The notes under the pieces are model-generated. The model had not been told where the DNA came from. It saw only the letters and a program-made list of their open reading frames with translations, and did no database searches. The position numbers were made by a program, and so were the translations under genes. A DNA stretch of 10,312 nucleotides from a bacterium (lineage in GTDB: Bacteria; UBA9089; JASEGY01), in the NCBI GenBank assembly GCA_030019105.1, contig JASEGY010000005.1, forward strand, positions 16,053-26,364. Direction: 5' to 3'. This document shows, piece by piece, positions 756-9,860 of the stretch (positions are counted from its first letter, which is position 1; every line of letters starts with the position of its first letter).

Positions 756-3395
756 TTACTTAAGCACAATCATCTTCCTGGTCGAGGTAAAATCACCGGC
801 CTTCAACTGATAGAGATAAATCCCGCTGGCTGTCTCATGCCCATGGTTATCTTTACCATCCCAGTAAGCGGCTTTATCCTTAATCTCATATATCCCGGCT
901 GCCTTTTCACCCAGATCAAGGGTCCGGATCAACTGACCGGAGAGGGAATAAACATTGATCACTACCCTGGCTGAGTTGCTCAGACTGAACGGAATCCATG
1001 TCTCAGGATTGATCGGGTTAGGATAGTTCTGAGAGAGGAAAGATCGACTTGGTATCGACTCTGGATTGAGAAGCTCAAAGGGAAGCTCAATAGCCTGATC
1101 ACTGCCCAGGATAATCTCGTTTACAGAGATATCCCCGGCTGAAGCGGCTTGCGCCAGGGTAATCTTCAAGAGCTCTCCAGAACCATTTGCTCCAGAGACC
1201 CCAGGCATATTGATCAATACCCTGGCTCTACCCTGCTCATTTTGGATATTACTCAGGATACGGGCTCCTTCAGCGAGGTCCCCCACCTCTATCTTTTCAA
1301 TCCTCACCTTGGCTGGATCGTAACTAAGATCACAGAAGAGGGTATCAAAGTTCTTCATCTCACCGGCCCACAGTTTTAATTCGTTGGTAGCTACACCTCT
1401 CATCCTCAATTTGGCTATTACCTCTGAAGTGGTCATCTTAGCCGGAGCCGGAGCCGCAGGTAAGCCAAGAACAATCCGCTCAATAGCCGTAATATCGGCT
1501 GAACTTACCTTCCCATCCCCATTGGCATCGGCATTAGCCCAGTTACAATAACACTTGTCGGCGCCATCAAAACCCAGGAGGCATCTCTCTAACTGGGTAA
1601 TATCTAAGATAGTAACACCGCTGTCACAGTTAACATCACCGCGACAGGTGGGAGGACCAATAGCACCCGCACCTATACAAAAACTGGTGCCAGTTACATT
1701 CATCACGCATATCTCCCTGGCTGCAGTATCACCCATAGTATGAGTATCACCTAAGGTATTGCAACACGTTGTTTCTCCCCTGTATAGATTAAGATTGCAA
1801 CACCCAGTAGGTCCTGTAGCCCACAGATATATCTCGACTAACGATGTGTCCGCATCAGGATTGCCAGAAGTAGCAGTGCTCGTAACCCAACTGTTAACAT
1901 CTAACATATTGACCAGAAACTCGATTCTCCCTGCCACAGTATCCATATCTACCATAAGATTTGTCCCTGGATGAACCGAGGTGTCAGTCGCATCTCCCAA
2001 CCGGACGGTAGGGGTAGAAAAGCAATTAGTGTCGTAGGTAAGGCTGGCATGAAGTGTATCCATATAATACACTGTATCAGACATTACATCGACTTTAAAC
2101 TGAGTTCCTTGAGGGCCACTCGAAACAGGGGTGGTTTGAAGCCAGAGATTGGTCCAGTTGATGAAGTTTGTGTCAGAGTAATTCCAATCAGAACTACCAG
2201 CTATATTCCAGCCACGCACCCCATAGTTCACATTATGACCTCGCAGGTTGACCACAGTAGTGTCAAAAAAGCTGGTATCCGAGGTCTGACCAATATAAGT
2301 GTGAGAACTCCCATCAACACTCCTCCAAATCCCAAAGGTATCCTCACAATCATCCGGATAGCCCCTGCCCCAGGTCAATCTGACCCCAGAGTCAGCCGCA
2401 TTGCACTGGAAGGTCTTGACAATGTTAGTTGGACTATCAGGTGCATTCATGGCTGCCCAGCTTGGGGAGTTCATTTCCATCCATTCGTGGCCACTACCAT
2501 TAACCCAGAGCGTCCAGGCATTACTTGTCATAGGCACAGGGGCAGTATCCATATAGATTCTCCCCTTAGTGGTGAGATGATGGGAAATGAAAATAACCGT
2601 ATCTCCAGTAGTGGTGTCAGCAAAATAAGGAGAAGTTTGGACTGCCGAATCCATAGTCACCCTTTGGACTGTTGTCCCTGTTATATTCATTATGTATATC
2701 TCAGCTTGGGTATCATTACGGTTAGAGGCAAAAACGACCGTATCTCCGCTGCTGTGAATAGCCGGGTCCATATCATAATAATTGGTATTGGTCAAAGGAG
2801 TTAATCCAGTACCGTTCATGGCCATCCGCATAATTACCGGATTATTACTATTTGGTCCCCGATTGGATTGGAAGACAATGTAAGTTCCGTTATGAGATGG
2901 TGCCTGGTCATTATAACCATCCCAGGTTAATCTGAATAGGCCCGTTCCATCTGTCTTCACTTTATATATCTCGTAGTCAGTCTCACCAGTCGGGATCGCA
3001 GAAAAAACTATCCAGTCAGGCGCTGCCCTATTAGTCGAAAAAGCTGGTTGAACTGCTGTATCCACGCTTTCACAAAGTGTCGTCTCAACCCCAGTGACAA
3101 GATTCTTCAGGTATATCCCGAACTTCCCATTATTCTTCTTGGCCGCGAAGACCACCTTATTGGCATCGGGTGAGATGCAGGGATCGATATCATCATAGCT
3201 ATTGTTAGTCACCCGTTTTGGGGTCGTATCCGGAAGACCTACGTAATAAATCTCCCAATCTCCCACGCCATTATTATCAGGGTCGTCAAAACCCTCAAAG
3301 ACGATCCTGTCCATTGCCATAGCCTCGACTGCAAAACACAAGCCTAAGCTCAAGGCAACCAGTAAAACCCATATCCAGCGACTACCTTTCTTCAT
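756..3395 (-). CDS. Secreted TolB-like propeller / FN3 / cohesin-dockerin surface protein (879 aa)
   Basis: The start at 3395 is chosen because AAGGAGGGG (3411-3403) precedes it and because MKKGSRWIWVLLVALSLG opens a good signal peptide (likely cut after AMA, residue 27). The frame runs 19 codons further upstream but with no ribosome binding site. Visible domains: TolB/WD40-like propeller, residues 28-315, with repeated DWEIYYV, FGIYLKN, DYEIYKVKTDG and AEIYIMN strands; FN3-like 318-413; cohesin-like 416-572; dockerin about 586-645 with loops D587-D598 and D623-D634; a second cohesin-like domain about 655-775 (LSYDPAKVRIE); FlgD-like / type IX-sorting-like tail 784-879 (YPNPINPETWIPF, AYWDGKDN, ASGIYLYQL). 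The first dockerin loop has DS in place of the usual DG. It is collinear with residues 674-1516 of the paralogue at 5254-9804 but lacks PKD domains and has an unrelated signal peptide. Probably a surface scaffold or adhesive protein; no catalytic domain was seen. Confidence 0.9.
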   Translation of the reverse strand: MKKGSRWIWVLLVALSLGLCFAVEAMAMDRIVFEGFDDPDNNGVGDWEIYYVGLPDTTPKRVTNNSYDDIDPCISPDANKVVFAAKKNNGKFGIYLKNLVTGVETTLCESVDTAVQPAFSTNRAAPDWIVFSAIPTGETDYEIYKVKTDGTGLFRLTWDGYNDQAPSHNGTYIVFQSNRGPNSNNPVIMRMAMNGTGLTPLTNTNYYDMDPAIHSSGDTVVFASNRNDTQAEIYIMNITGTTVQRVTMDSAVQTSPYFADTTTGDTVIFISHHLTTKGRIYMDTAPVPMTSNAWTLWVNGSGHEWMEMNSPSWAAMNAPDSPTNIVKTFQCNAADSGVRLTWGRGYPDDCEDTFGIWRSVDGSSHTYIGQTSDTSFFDTTVVNLRGHNVNYGVRGWNIAGSSDWNYSDTNFINWTNLWLQTTPVSSGPQGTQFKVDVMSDTVYYMDTLHASLTYDTNCFSTPTVRLGDATDTSVHPGTNLMVDMDTVAGRIEFLVNMLDVNSWVTSTATSGNPDADTSLVEIYLWATGPTGCCNLNLYRGETTCCNTLGDTHTMGDTAAREICVMNVTGTSFCIGAGAIGPPTCRGDVNCDSGVTILDITQLERCLLGFDGADKCYCNWANADANGDGKVSSADITAIERIVLGLPAAPAPAKMTTSEVIAKLRMRGVATNELKLWAGEMKNFDTLFCDLSYDPAKVRIEKIEVGDLAEGARILSNIQNEQGRARVLINMPGVSGANGSGELLKITLAQAASAGDISVNEIILGSDQAIELPFELLNPESIPSRSFLSQNYPNPINPETWIPFSLSNSARVVINVYSLSGQLIRTLDLGEKAAGIYEIKDKAAYWDGKDNHGHETASGIYLYQLKAGDFTSTRKMIVLK

Positions 3396-3402
3396 GTCTA
3401 AA

Positions 3403-3411
3403 CCCCTCCTT
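3403..3411 (-). promoter_or_regulatory. Ribosome binding site fixing the start at 3395
   Basis: The minus strand reads AAGGAGGGGTTTAGAC then ATG. AAGGAGG lies 9 nt before the start. This decides for the internal ATG over the upstream in-frame ATG at 3452, which is preceded only by AT-rich sequence. Confidence 0.8.
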
Positions 3412-3541
3412 ATGTTTTTTGAGTGAATCTTTGTTACCAACCACTTACCCAAATTAATTCATATCTTGTTGGGCAAAACAATACTCCTCACGGTCCCCTT
3501 GCTTTCATCATCATTCCCCTCCTGGTTTTTAAACTGGCTAA

Positions 3542-3638: not shown

Positions 3639-4016
3639 TCATCTTGAACCAAATCCACCCATTCTCTCTCTAATCTTAACCGAATCTCTATAAAGGATGA
3701 CCAGTTTCTTTTTAAACCGAGAAAAAGGATAGCCCTGCAAAAATCTTACTACTATCCCTATTTCTTCATCTGATTTCAAGTTTCCAGGACGGATATAGAT
3801 GATTCCACCTATCTTCTCTGGATCGAACCGAAAAGGATTGGTAAAATGGTAATCTCTGGTGATGATCACTGCTCCTCCTTTGCCAGATATATCAAATATC
3901 GATGTATCTTTCATCCCACGATCAGATAATTCTGCAATGGCAATTACCTCATATCCCAAGCTACGCAGGGTCGTTACCAGACCATAACTTACATTTTCAT
4001 CAATCACTAACTTCAT
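3639..4016 (-). CDS. DUF5615 PIN-like protein, probable toxin of a DUF433/DUF5615 pair (125 aa)
   Basis: The family consists of PIN-like, putatively RNA-cleaving proteins usually paired with a DUF433 partner. Seen here: MKLVIDENVS with the conserved acidic residue D6 at the N-terminus, GYEVIAIAEL followed by D32 and D37, and VIITRDYHF with D55, matching the DEN...TRDxxF pattern expected of a divalent-metal site. At 125 residues it is a usual length and looks intact. Its ATG overlaps the stop of the upstream DUF433 gene as ATGA (4016-4013), so translation is probably coupled; only a weak GGTGG precedes it. It ends in TGA. Toxin activity is inferred from family and context, not shown. The MITE-like element follows 30 nt downstream. 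Confidence 0.85.
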   Translation of the reverse strand: MKLVIDENVSYGLVTTLRSLGYEVIAIAELSDRGMKDTSIFDISGKGGAVIITRDYHFTNPFRFDPEKIGGIIYIRPGNLKSDEEIGIVVRFLQGYPFSRFKKKLVILYRDSVKIRERMGGFGSR

Positions 4017-5253: not shown

Positions 5254-8200
5254 TTACTTCACCACAATCATCTTCCTGGTCGAGATAAAATCACCGGCCT
5301 TCAACTGATAAAGGTAAACCCCGCTGGCCACTTTGTGCCCCTGGTTATCTTTACCATCCCAGTAAGCGGCTTTCTCCTTATCCTCGTATATCCCGACCGG
5401 CTTTTTACCCAGATCAAGAGTCCGGATCAATTGACCGGAGACTGAGTAAATATTGATCACTACCTTAGCCGGCTGACTCAGACCAAAGGGTATCCAGGCC
5501 TCAGGATTGAGAGGATTGGGGTAGCTCTGAGAGAGGAAAGACTGGCTCGGTATAGCTTCGGGATTGAGTAACTCAAAGGGCAGTTCAATAGCCTGATTAC
5601 TACCCAGGACAATCCTGTTTATAGAGATGTCTCCGGCTGAAGCTGCTTCTGCCAGAGTAATCTTTAATAGGTCTCCGGAACCATTGATACCGGTTATTCC
5701 GGGCATATTGAGCAATATCCTGATTCTACCCTGCCCATTTTGGATATTACTCCGGATACAGGCTCCCTCGATTATACTCCCGGCTTCCACCTTTTCAATC
5801 CTTACCCTGGCCGGGTCGTAGTTGAGGTCACACTGGAGGGTATCAAAGCCCTTAACTTCGCCGACAAACAGGGTCAGTTCCCTGGTAGCCACACCTCTCA
5901 TCTTCAGTTTGGCTATTGCCTCCGAAGTGGTAATCTTAGACGGAGCCGGGGCCGGATCCAGGCCAAGAATAATCCGCTCAATAGCCGTAATATCGGCTGA
6001 GCTTATTCTACCATCCTGATTGGCATCAGCATTAGCCCAATTACAGTAGCAGTCGCTGTCAAGACCCAGCAGGCATCTCTCTAACTTGGTAATATCCATG
6101 CCACGAACCTTTCCATCACAGTTAACATCACCTATAAGAGTCGGCGTGGGCAAAGGTTGGCTACTTATACAGATAGTCGTGTCACTCACATCCATCACGC
6201 ATATCTCCTGGGCTACGGTGTTACCCATAGTCGAGCTGTCACTTAAGGTAGTGCAGTCTGTCCTCCGGAGGTCAAGGGCGCAACACGTCCCCGAGTCTCC
6301 TATAGCCCAGAGATATATCTCGACTAATGATGTGTCAGAAGTGGTTGTAACCCAACTATTAACATCTAACATGTTGACCAGGAACTCGATTGTTCCTGCC
6401 CCCGTATCAATATCCACCATCAGGTCTGTCCCCGGGTGAACCGAGGTGTCAGTCGCATCTCCCAACCGGACGGTAGGGGTGGAAAAGCAATTAGTGTTGT
6501 ATGTCAGGCAGGCGTGAAGGGTGTCCATATAATAAACCGTGTCACACATTATATCGGCTCTAACCTGGGCCCCTTGAGTTACCGTATTACTATCGCTGAC
6601 TTCAACCCAGAGATTAGTCCAATTGATGAAGATTGTGTTGGAGTAAGCCCAGGGAGAAGAATCGGCAATATTCCAGCCACGCACCCTGTAACGGACAGTG
6701 TCGCCCCGGAGGTTAACCGCCGTAGTGTCAAGAAAAGTGGTCTCAGAAGTCGAGCCTATGAAAGCCCAGGCGCTTGAGGTTGACTCTCTCTGAATCTCAA
6801 AGGTGTCTTCACTGTCATTCAGGCTGCCCCTGCTCCAGCTCAATTTGACCCCAAAGTCATTTGTATCACATTGCAAGCTCACCCCGGTGATAGTCGGGGT
6901 GTCAGGTAAAGCGACATATGCCCAGCTTGGGGAATTTATTTCCATATTTTCAAGTCCGGACTTGTTGACGACCGTGGTCCAGCTCGCTGGAATAGCCATA
7001 TTGGTTCCATTGGCATAGTTTACGTAGATATTGCCTTTGGATGTCTCATGAGCGGAAGTAAAGACCACCCAGATTCCATTATCCCCTGCAAAATAAGAAG
7101 ATACCTGGGTAGAAACATGACTGGTTGCCTGCACTATGCTCCCATCCGATTTCCTCACATAGATATCGGTAGTATCTCCGCTGCTGCCTCGATCAGAAGT
7201 AAAGGTGACCGTATCCCCGGTAGAGGTTATGGCCGGATCCATATCACGAGCATCATTATTGGTTAAATTAGTCAAGCCATTACCGTCCATGCCCATTCGC
7301 ATGATCTCCCAGTTATTACTGGTCCCCCGATTGGATTGGAAAACAATGTAGGTCCCATTATGGGAGGGGGCCTGATTATTATAGTCATCATAGGTTAATC
7401 TGAGCATGCCGAGTCCATTTGTCTTCACCTTATATATCTCCCAATCAGTCTCACTGGTCGGAATGGCGGAAAAAACTATCCAGGTATCGGCGTCATTATT
7501 GGTCGAAAAAGATGGTTGAGCCGCTTTTTCCACGCTCTCACAGAGCACAGTCAGGTCTCCATCAGTGATATTCTTCAGGTATATCCCGAACTTATCATTC
7601 GTCTTTTTAGCCGCGTAAACTACCTTCAAGCCATCCGGTGAGATACAGGGATCAATATCATCATAGCTATTGTCAGTCACTTGTTTCGGAATGTTACCAG
7701 TCGTATCTACCAGGTCCACGTAAAAAATCTCCCAATCACCGTCACTGTCCTGGTGCCCTTTAAAGGTAACTCTCCCGGTCACATTGGGAGGAGTCTGCCA
7801 TATAACAACCGTGGCCGTATCAGTGCTTGTATCCCCATCATCATCAGTAACCATAAGAGTAACAATGTATGTCCCGACCGTGGCGTAGGTGTAAGTAGGA
7901 GTAGAATCGGAACCCTCAAGATCATAAATCCCGTTACTGGTAAAATCCCAGGAATAAGTTTCAATAGTATCGCAGGCAGCCGTGGCTGTGCTTCCTGTCC
8001 CATCAAGTTCAAGAGGACTGCCTACACTGCCCCCGTATGGCCCGTTAGCATCAGCTATGGCTGTGCCGGCGTCAGTTACGGTGATGGTTGCCGTATCTGA
8101 AGCCGTATTGCCATCGTCATCGGTTACGGTCAGGGTTGCGGTGTAGACCCCGCTATCTACATTCGAGAGGTGCAGGACAGGATCCTCGACCGTGGTATCA

Positions 8201-9804
8201 GACCAACCTCCACTAAAAGTCCAACGGTAAGTGTTGATGGTATCACAGATAGCCCCGGCAGTCCCTGAGCCGTCAAGGGAAATGGTGCCGCTACATTCAG
8301 TGCCGGTATACGGCCCGCCGGCATCAGCTATCGGTGTGCCAACATTAGTTACGGTAATGGTCGCCGTATCTGAAGCTGTATTGCCATCGTCATCGGTTAC
8401 GGTCAGGGTTGCGGTGTAGACCCCGCTATCTACATTCGAGAGGTGCAGGACAGGATCCTCGACCGTGGTATCAGACCAACCTCCACTAAAAGTCCAACGG
8501 TAAGTGTTGATGGTATCACAGATAGCCCCGGCAGTCCCTGAGCCGTCAAGGGAAATGGTGCCGCTACATTCAGTGCCGGTATACGGCCCGCCGGCATCAG
8601 CTATCGGTGTGCCAACATTAGTTACGGTAATGGTCGCCGTATCTGAAGCTGTATTGCCATCGTCATCGGTTACGGTCAGGGTTGCGGTGTAGACCCCGCT
8701 ATCTACATTCGAGAGGTCCAGGACAGGATCCTCAACCGTAGTATCAGACCAACCTCCACTAAAAGTCCAACGGTAAGTGTTGATGGTATCACAGGTAGCC
8801 CCGGCAGTCCCTGAGCCAGCAAGGGAAATGGTGTCGCTACATTCAGTGCCGGTATACGGCCCCCCGGCATCAGCTGTCGGTGTGCCGGCATTAGTTACGG
8901 TAATGGTCGCCGTATCTGAAGCTGTATTGCCATCGTCATCGGTTACGGTCAGGGTTGCGGTGTAGACCCCGCTATCTACATTCGAGAGGTCCAGGACAGG
9001 ATCCTCAACCGTAGTATCAGACCAAGCTCCACTAAAAGTCCAACTGTAAGTGTCGATGGTGTCACAGGTAGCCCCGGCAGTCCCTGAGCCATCAAGGGGA
9101 ATGGTGCCGCTACATTCAGTGCCGCTATACAGCCCCCCGGCATCAGCTATCGGTGTGCCGGTGTCAGTTATGGTGATGGTTGCCGTATCTGAAGCCGTAT
9201 TACCATCGTCATCGGTTACGGTCAGGGTTGCGGTATAGACCCCGCTATCTACATTCGAGAGGGACAGGACAGGATCCTCAACCGTAGTATCAGACCAAGC
9301 TCCACTAAAAGTCCAACTGTAAGTGTCGATGGTGTCACAGGTAGCCCCGGCAGTCCCTGAGCCATCAAGGGAAATAGTGCCGCTACATTCAGTGCCGCTA
9401 TACGGCCCCCTGGCATCAGCTGTCGGTGTGCCGGCGTCAGTTACGGTAATCTGAGCTTCATCACTATCCGAATCTACATTCCAGGTAGTTACTAACAATC
9501 TTATGGTATAGACTCCGCTATCATAAGTATTATTAGCATAAAAGGCGGGTTGAGTTCCCGAAGCGTCATCATAAAACCCATCCAGATCAAAGTCCCATAA
9601 GTAAGTAGCTATCGTATCACTGGCGTCTGAATCACTCCCTGTGGCGTCAAGAGTAACGGTGTTACACTCGTCAACAGTATACGGCCCTCCTGCATCGGCC
9701 GTAGGCACCACCGCCGAAGCCACCTGAGCCATTCCCAACAACATTACCAAAACCAAACCAAGACAAAAACCGAACCTCCCTGCTTTTCCTAAAGACTTTG
9801 ACAT
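5254..9804 (-). CDS. Giant secreted PKD-array / propeller / cohesin-dockerin surface protein (1516 aa)
   Basis: Start 9804 follows AAAGGAGG by 6 nt and opens a clean signal peptide (MSKSLGKAGRFGFCLGL to VASA, residue 31). An in-frame ATG at 9855, also with a good Shine-Dalgarno, would add 17 residues. Domains: PKD1 32-125; five 91-residue PKD repeats 126-580; PKD7 581-673; TolB-like propeller about 674-965 (DWEIFYVD, FGIYLKN, DWEIYKVKTNG, NWEIMRMGMDG, TDIYVRK, GNIYVNY); FN3-like 967-1062; cohesin-like 1063-1220; dockerin 1224-1283 with calcium loops D1226-D1237 and D1260-D1271; second cohesin-like 1292-1415 (LNYDPARVRIEKVEAGS); FlgD-like / type IX-sorting-like tail 1420-1516. From 674 on it parallels the 879-residue protein at 756-3395. 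Cysteines in the PKD array follow a staggered scheme. Role inferred: an extended surface stalk presenting a propeller and binding modules. No enzyme domain seen. Confidence 0.9.
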   Translation of the reverse strand: MSKSLGKAGRFGFCLGLVLVMLLGMAQVASAVVPTADAGGPYTVDECNTVTLDATGSDSDASDTIATYLWDFDLDGFYDDASGTQPAFYANNTYDSGVYTIRLLVTTWNVDSDSDEAQITVTDAGTPTADARGPYSGTECSGTISLDGSGTAGATCDTIDTYSWTFSGAWSDTTVEDPVLSLSNVDSGVYTATLTVTDDDGNTASDTATITITDTGTPIADAGGLYSGTECSGTIPLDGSGTAGATCDTIDTYSWTFSGAWSDTTVEDPVLDLSNVDSGVYTATLTVTDDDGNTASDTATITVTNAGTPTADAGGPYTGTECSDTISLAGSGTAGATCDTINTYRWTFSGGWSDTTVEDPVLDLSNVDSGVYTATLTVTDDDGNTASDTATITVTNVGTPIADAGGPYTGTECSGTISLDGSGTAGAICDTINTYRWTFSGGWSDTTVEDPVLHLSNVDSGVYTATLTVTDDDGNTASDTATITVTNVGTPIADAGGPYTGTECSGTISLDGSGTAGAICDTINTYRWTFSGGWSDTTVEDPVLHLSNVDSGVYTATLTVTDDDGNTASDTATITVTDAGTAIADANGPYGGSVGSPLELDGTGSTATAACDTIETYSWDFTSNGIYDLEGSDSTPTYTYATVGTYIVTLMVTDDDGDTSTDTATVVIWQTPPNVTGRVTFKGHQDSDGDWEIFYVDLVDTTGNIPKQVTDNSYDDIDPCISPDGLKVVYAAKKTNDKFGIYLKNITDGDLTVLCESVEKAAQPSFSTNNDADTWIVFSAIPTSETDWEIYKVKTNGLGMLRLTYDDYNNQAPSHNGTYIVFQSNRGTSNNWEIMRMGMDGNGLTNLTNNDARDMDPAITSTGDTVTFTSDRGSSGDTTDIYVRKSDGSIVQATSHVSTQVSSYFAGDNGIWVVFTSAHETSKGNIYVNYANGTNMAIPASWTTVVNKSGLENMEINSPSWAYVALPDTPTITGVSLQCDTNDFGVKLSWSRGSLNDSEDTFEIQRESTSSAWAFIGSTSETTFLDTTAVNLRGDTVRYRVRGWNIADSSPWAYSNTIFINWTNLWVEVSDSNTVTQGAQVRADIMCDTVYYMDTLHACLTYNTNCFSTPTVRLGDATDTSVHPGTDLMVDIDTGAGTIEFLVNMLDVNSWVTTTSDTSLVEIYLWAIGDSGTCCALDLRRTDCTTLSDSSTMGNTVAQEICVMDVSDTTICISSQPLPTPTLIGDVNCDGKVRGMDITKLERCLLGLDSDCYCNWANADANQDGRISSADITAIERIILGLDPAPAPSKITTSEAIAKLKMRGVATRELTLFVGEVKGFDTLQCDLNYDPARVRIEKVEAGSIIEGACIRSNIQNGQGRIRILLNMPGITGINGSGDLLKITLAEAASAGDISINRIVLGSNQAIELPFELLNPEAIPSQSFLSQSYPNPLNPEAWIPFGLSQPAKVVINIYSVSGQLIRTLDLGKKPVGIYEDKEKAAYWDGKDNQGHKVASGVYLYQLKAGDFISTRKMIVVK
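7786..9711 (-). repeat. Seven PKD domains; five central ones as 273-bp tandem repeats
   Basis: PKD1 (9711-9430) and PKD7 (8064-7786) are divergent caps. PKD2-6 (9429-8065) are five 91-codon units, each starting T(P)xADAxGxY and ending DTATIT(V/I)T(D/N)xG. PKD2-3 share YSWTFSGAW and PKD4-6 share YRWTFSGGW, so the array grew in at least two steps. In DNA, bases 8105-8444 equal 8378-8717 exactly: a 340-base match at shift 273 covering all of one unit. Confidence 0.92.
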
Positions 9805-9810
9805 AATAAA

Positions 9811-9818
9811 CCTCCTTT
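9811..9818 (-). promoter_or_regulatory. Ribosome binding site for the start at 9804
   Basis: AAAGGAGG, then TTTATT, then ATG. It lies inside the optional 17-codon extension (coding KRRFI), yet is ideally placed before the natural signal peptide. Confidence 0.7.
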
Positions 9819-9860
9819 TATTGTTTTTACCACTTGATCTTCCTATCATGTTCATGTGAT

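Follow-up and report, generated by a model that had tools for sequence, protein, structure and literature searches.

Staggered cysteines in a seven-domain PKD array point to probable disulfides between each domain and the next

The window analysed here, a stretch of 10,312 nucleotides from a bacterial assembly, carries on its reverse strand a gene for an exported protein of 1533 amino acids. The protein is composed, in order, of a probable signal peptide, seven PKD domains, a TolB/PD40-like propeller, a dockerin and a T9SS-type C-terminal domain (Table 1). The PKD domains were identified by Pfam, with seven stretches each for PF22352 (187.8 bits) and PF18911 (159.3 bits; cut-offs 27). The family of the T9SS translocon protein SprA (PF14349) had no matches in the genome; it had none in the control genomes either. 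A paralogue without a PKD array lies at 756-3452 on the same strand; it begins at the propeller and is 65% identical over 864 residues, which marks the array as an N-terminal add-on. Between the two paralogues there is a gene for a DUF5615/PIN-like protein of 125 amino acids (3639-4016, reverse strand). Two cysteines at the start of the propeller, 737 and 772, both have counterparts in the paralogue, and as that protein has no array, neither of them requires a partner among the PKD domains.

Table 1. Features of the gene for the PKD-array protein, in window coordinates; residues are numbered in the 1533-residue protein.
Feature	Coordinates	Strand	Residues	Basis and remarks
Gene for 1533-aa exported protein	5254..9855	-		ORF from upstream ATG; Pfam and NCBIfam matches
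Probable signal peptide	9712..9804	-	18-48	By eye from the sequence, counted from an internal Met
PKD1	9427..9705	-	51-143	C1 only: C64 (codon 9664-9666)
PKD2	9154..9426	-	144-234	C1 C157 (9385-9387), C2 C173 (9337-9339)
PKD3	8881..9153	-	235-325	C1 C248 (9112-9114), C2 C264 (9064-9066)
PKD4	8608..8880	-	326-416	C1 C339 (8839-8841), C2 C355 (8791-8793)
PKD5	8335..8607	-	417-507	C1 C430 (8566-8568), C2 C446 (8518-8520)
PKD6	8062..8334	-	508-598	C1 C521 (8293-8295), C2 C537 (8245-8247)
PKD7	7786..8061	-	599-690	C2 only: C628 (codon 7972-7974)
TolB/PD40-like beta-propeller region after the array	6901..7773	-		Approximate limits, from alignment with the paralogue at 756-3452; PF07676; TIGR02800 at residues 714-955
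Dockerin type I domain	5968..6132	-	1242-1296	PF00404, 39.3 bits (cut-off 22.9)
T9SS type A sorting-like C-terminal domain	5263..5523	-	1445-1531	TIGR04183, 26.5 bits (cut-off 23); also PF18962, 40.4 bits (cut-off 27)

Exactly twelve cysteines, and no others, occur in residues 51-690. Six of them (C1) lie in the AB loop just before strand B, one in each of PKD1-6, and six (C2) in the BC loop just before strand C, one in each of PKD2-7. The array thus reads AXXXXXb, where PKD1 has C1 only, PKD2-6 have both and PKD7 has C2 only. The initial annotation had described this arrangement of six and six, with each terminal domain lacking one cysteine, and the residue positions bear it out; its numbers, counted from an internal Met, are those of the 1533-residue protein minus 17, and the entry P0001, which begins at that Met, gives 47, 140, 231 and so on exactly. 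We define as staggered those arrays in which an AB-loop cysteine in domain n goes with an upper-pole cysteine in domain n+1 and the outward cysteine is absent from both terminal domains, a class to which this array belongs. The spacing from C1 of one domain to C2 of the next is 107 residues five times and 109 once, while C1 and C2 of the same domain are 16 residues apart. In all seven copies cysteine is found only at profile positions 14 and 29, and the canonical intradomain B-F pair of Ig domains is absent. Cysteine is rare at these two positions: in the first 120 related proteins, which hold 1984 PKD domains and include this protein, positions 14 and 29 carry it six times each, always in this protein.

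How much these counts can carry depends on the history of the repeats. In pairwise DNA comparisons PKD2-6 are 90-97% identical to each other; PKD1 matches them at 59-60% and PKD7 at 53-56%, and the two end domains share 46%. Because PKD2-6 are so alike in their DNA, the six-and-six count is largely that of one amplified unit, and the window alone therefore counts as about three independent domains. Its independent facts are a PKD1 with C1 only, a repeated unit with both cysteines and a PKD7 with C2 only. The pairing that the initial annotation had read from the array, C1 of each domain with C2 of the next, is supported, but the window alone speaks for it less strongly than it seemed to, since PKD2-6 are recent copies.

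A domain of Ig-type topology has its AB loop at the C-terminal pole and its BC and FG loops at the opposite, N-terminal one; C1 of domain n is thereby turned towards the upper loops of domain n+1. The predicted models have the PKD beta-sandwich fold and place C1 between the strand at domain residues 9-12 and strand B, with C2 immediately ahead of strand C; the two-domain model reached a pLDDT of 92.1 and a pTM of 0.75, the seven-domain model a pTM of only 0.41. We consider it very probable that covalent staples make the array a rod, with the AB-loop cysteine of each domain bonded to the BC-loop cysteine of its successor. Disulfides of this kind would span all six PKD-PKD junctions, and the free outer faces of PKD1 and PKD7 have no partner cysteine. 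The staples would limit bending and twisting, making of the array a stiff N-terminal spacer before the propeller, dockerin and sorting domains. Every two-cysteine unit gained by tandem duplication would add one more staple and leave no lone cysteine, in keeping with the recent expansion of PKD2-6. The scheme would be one variant of a wider design, in which the partner of the same AB-loop cysteine lies in either the BC or the FG loop of the following domain.

Strong support for pairing between domain n and domain n+1 comes from covariation in other proteins, in which three intradomain pairs serve as controls. The set comprised 240 related proteins with 3999 PKD domains, this protein included, taken from the best 120 matches listed for each search; a cysteine in the BC or the FG loop was counted as an upper-pole cysteine, and 96 proteins contribute. 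The bins, in profile positions, were 10-17.5 for the AB loop, 26-31 for the BC loop and 72.5-80 for the FG loop, with at most 35 residues between domains (earlier 15), and truncated profile hits were extended ungapped before their cysteines were binned. A first mapping, which took the FG-loop cysteine alone as the upper-pole cysteine, gave a weaker 70 next-only against 31 same-only domains and was replaced because it missed cysteines just outside truncated hits, for example in P0158.

Among these 240 best-listed proteins, 729 of the 744 domains that have an AB-loop cysteine and an adjacent successor are followed by an upper-pole cysteine in domain n+1: 513 have one both in their own domain and in the successor, 216 in the successor only, 9 in their own only and 6 in neither. 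Counted by protein, 87 favour the next domain and 3 the same, out of the 96 that contribute. Against the expectation within proteins, pairs at offset +1 are in strong excess (729 observed, 543.8 expected, z 27.7), those at offset 0 are not (640 and 634.4, z 0.8) and those at offset -1 are depleted (464 and 497.6, z -5.3), while the intradomain control pairs 39-56, 21-68 and 71-78 all peak at offset 0. The phi coefficient is 0.894 for the junction from n to n+1; within a single domain it is 0.593, and across the junction taken in reverse 0.529. When the proteins are clustered, the next domain is favoured by 13 clusters and the same domain by 1, of 25, at 40% identity; the figures are 35 and 3 of 90 at 50%, and 3 and 0 of 3 at 35%.

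The junctions of these best-listed proteins divide into 729 with both cysteines, 15 with the AB-loop cysteine only, 120 with the upper-pole cysteine only and 2723 with none. Unequal numbers of the two cysteine types, which the initial annotation had named as refuting its reading, thus do exist, but as a minority of 15 and 120 against 729 pairs. Some of the 120 upper-pole cysteines whose preceding domain lacks an AB-loop cysteine may be members of different pairs, 68-74 for instance. Taken alone, the BC-loop variant finds a partner for 13 of 17 BC-loop cysteine domains in the P set, six of the 13 being those of this protein. The layout from AB to BC loop is one variant of a rule that appears more commonly as AB loop to FG loop.

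Because the 240 proteins came from searches that might prefer cysteine-rich relatives, a second sample was drawn irrespective of cysteine: a plain PKD family search of 290 genomes supplied the list from which 40 regions were taken. Proteins with at least three PKD domains were kept, which gave 29 proteins and 273 domains, binned with the same settings. Three of the 40 regions lie in genomes of the window's phylum, three further genomes in the sample (G032, G034 and G047) had given matches to the array of the window as well, and some patterns, such as XXtAXXXX, are common to both sets, which therefore share families. Here 98 of 104 AB-loop cysteine domains have their partner next door (21 next-only, 1 same-only, 5 neither), and an AB-loop cysteine precedes 10 of the 11 domains with a BC-loop cysteine.

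Individual relatives show the same stagger. In P0143, a protein named in its source as coming from a Proteobacteria MAG, four PKD domains read C1 only, both, both and C2 only; the first has Tyr at the C2 site and the last Asp at the C1 site, with the surrounding motif kept. G283 contains a run AXXb whose last stapled domain has EG in place of EC, and the domain after it, with EG and PPD, has neither cysteine. The array of G246 (AbAb..., locus L180) consists of nine alternating A-b pairs, and a partner is present for nine of its ten BC-loop cysteines, the tenth having none before it. P0147, P0150, P0169 and P0211, which are 40-64% identical to each other in their best BLASTP segments, have their sole BC-loop cysteine in domain 3 and an AB-loop cysteine in or just before domain 2. 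These four are large PKD proteins with the AB-BC pair near the start only, and apparent canonical B-F pairs (positions 21/68 or the same motif) occur in their later domains. No counterpart of the array itself was found in a genome of the same genus (G001), where the best match scored 69.8 bits against 1375.9 for the window, and a scan of genome contigs gave six loci, none with cysteine at profile positions 14 or 29 in the mapping used there.

The organism's own genome, a MAG of 4.3 Mb, has 101 PKD_4 matches, and in several of its PKD proteins cysteines that seem to be paired are abundant. In the arrays scanned there, 61 of 65 AB-loop cysteine domains with an adjacent successor have a partner in it (8 next-only, 3 same-only, 1 neither), and one array, C156, reads AXtAXt. 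C209 (locus L174) is a frame of 4742 amino acids with 31 PKD-like domains, many of which appear to hold an intradomain pair (16, 57-59) together with an inter-domain pair (12 to position 76 of the next). Its domain 20 lacks the cysteine at position 12 and its domain 21 that at position 76, while both retain the second pair within the domain (positions 16 and 57-59); the junction was tallied as same-only because the cysteine at position 16 falls within the AB bin. Paired absence of both cysteines at one junction, to which the initial annotation had looked for a sign of bonding, is therefore found both here and in G283 (domains 17/18). C309 fits less well: the final domain of its run has C2 only, but C2 is also present in the first PKD, which has no PKD ahead of it, and the second domain is masked by a run of N, so that a partner is visible for one of its three BC-loop domains and hidden for another. 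In the same protein (locus L055), residue 728 of the frame, in the last SBBP-type blade before the array, is a cysteine where the other blades seen have Ser, and this may be the partner of the upper-pole cysteine of the first PKD.

Among known systems, the closest in these comparisons was GhpA of Aureispira (cryo-EM entries 9flp, 9fly and 9flw), which among the Foldseek matches listed ranks first by E-value, at a TM of only 0.22, and comes first in the profile search too. In the portion of its sequence examined, the repeats mostly carry an AB-loop cysteine (CEG, CSG) and an FG-loop cysteine (GC), but the upper partner would be the FG loop and not the BC loop, and the chain is 5898 amino acids long. 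With AB- and FG-loop cysteines in that portion, the rule may be checkable directly in the deposited coordinates. The PKD array of KIAA0319L/AAVR (6nz0), namesake of the array's best Pfam family PF22352, scores 51.5 bits by phmmer, but the aligned stretch is free of cysteine and no staple is visible there; the collagenase PKD domains (ColG and ColH; e.g. 4u6t, 2y72) likewise differ, as the aligned ColH stretch has no cysteine and so no staple. In the tandem BIg domains of SiiE the relative orientation of Ig-like neighbours is fixed at the junction, although by Ca2+ sites instead of a disulfide and in BIg instead of PKD domains (PMC5466336). An Ig-like adhesin of Mobiluncus has tandem surface domains with covalent cross-links, one of them a disulfide, but the cross-links described there lie inside a domain, and its authors speak of a flexible interdomain linker (PMC10619420). 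Cross-linking of tandem Ig-like surface proteins, whether covalent or by calcium, is therefore already known. For a disulfide between successive PKD domains, our literature search, which reached few of the subscription papers, found no description. The layout itself is not confined to this protein.

Other explanations of the stagger have to be weighed. The cysteine pairs might join parallel chains at a stagger of one domain, giving a cross-linked bundle instead of a stapled single chain. Such a stagger would yield identical covariation between n and n+1; PKD domains of SorCS2 take part in dimer contacts (PMC6065357), and GhpA, the best profile match, is entered as 56 chains in eight entries. 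A bundle would, however, need a fixed one-domain offset in every chain, when within one chain the partner domain already lies immediately alongside, and arrays with a single AB-BC junction (the P0147 group) fit a local contact better. We regard the bundle as unlikely.

A shade less likely still is that the cysteines do come together between domains as proposed, yet remain reduced or coordinate a metal, in an organism without disulfide-forming enzymes. VKOR, DSBA, DsbB and Thioredoxin_4 had no matches in the genome, which is 95% complete, while the same searches were positive in control genomes; C1 of C309 and of P0143 has a His right after it (TECH, SECH), which could serve there as a third ligand. 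Against this, two cysteines alone make a poor metal site, the seven copies of this protein have no His or extra cysteine beside C1 or C2, and oxidation of an exported protein can take place outside the cell, the oxidase search having covered four families.

A bond within one PKD domain is very improbable. PKD2-6 do hold both cysteines, 16 residues apart, but a lone cysteine would remain in PKD1 and in PKD7, the arrays of P0237 (AtAt...) and G246 have no PKD domain with both, and the same-domain association does not rise above expectation. Least credible of all is an accident of domain shuffling, in which a first and a last PKD of other origin simply lack one cysteine each: the low DNA identity of PKD1 and PKD7 to the other copies, and the amplification of PKD2-6 as one unit, would suit it, but P0143, G283 and C156 follow the same rule at their ends, and the end domains of P0143 depart from the motif just at the unpaired cysteine site.

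Tandem PKD and Ig-like domains build giant bacterial and archaeal surface proteins, which are usually pictured as flexible strings of beads. Should bonds join neighbouring domains, as the stapled-rod reading proposes, such PKD rows may be covalently stapled rods and not loose chains, and the length of an array, its stiffness and the places of its hinges would become predictable from sequence and checkable in existing cryo-EM entries. The reading would also explain how arrays grow by tandem duplication without leaving a lone cysteine, and it would raise the question of which oxidant forms the bonds in an organism in which the usual enzymes, as far as the four families go, were not found. Beyond this protein, we lean towards the view that in tandem PKD arrays of many lineages the cysteines encode rods, as stapled runs from an AB-loop-only to an upper-pole-only domain, and hinges, as the domains between them that lack these cysteines. 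If that is true, two alternative upper sockets, in the BC and the FG loop, would serve one lower cysteine, and patterns like At.....AXXt.AXt would be a readable stiffness code.
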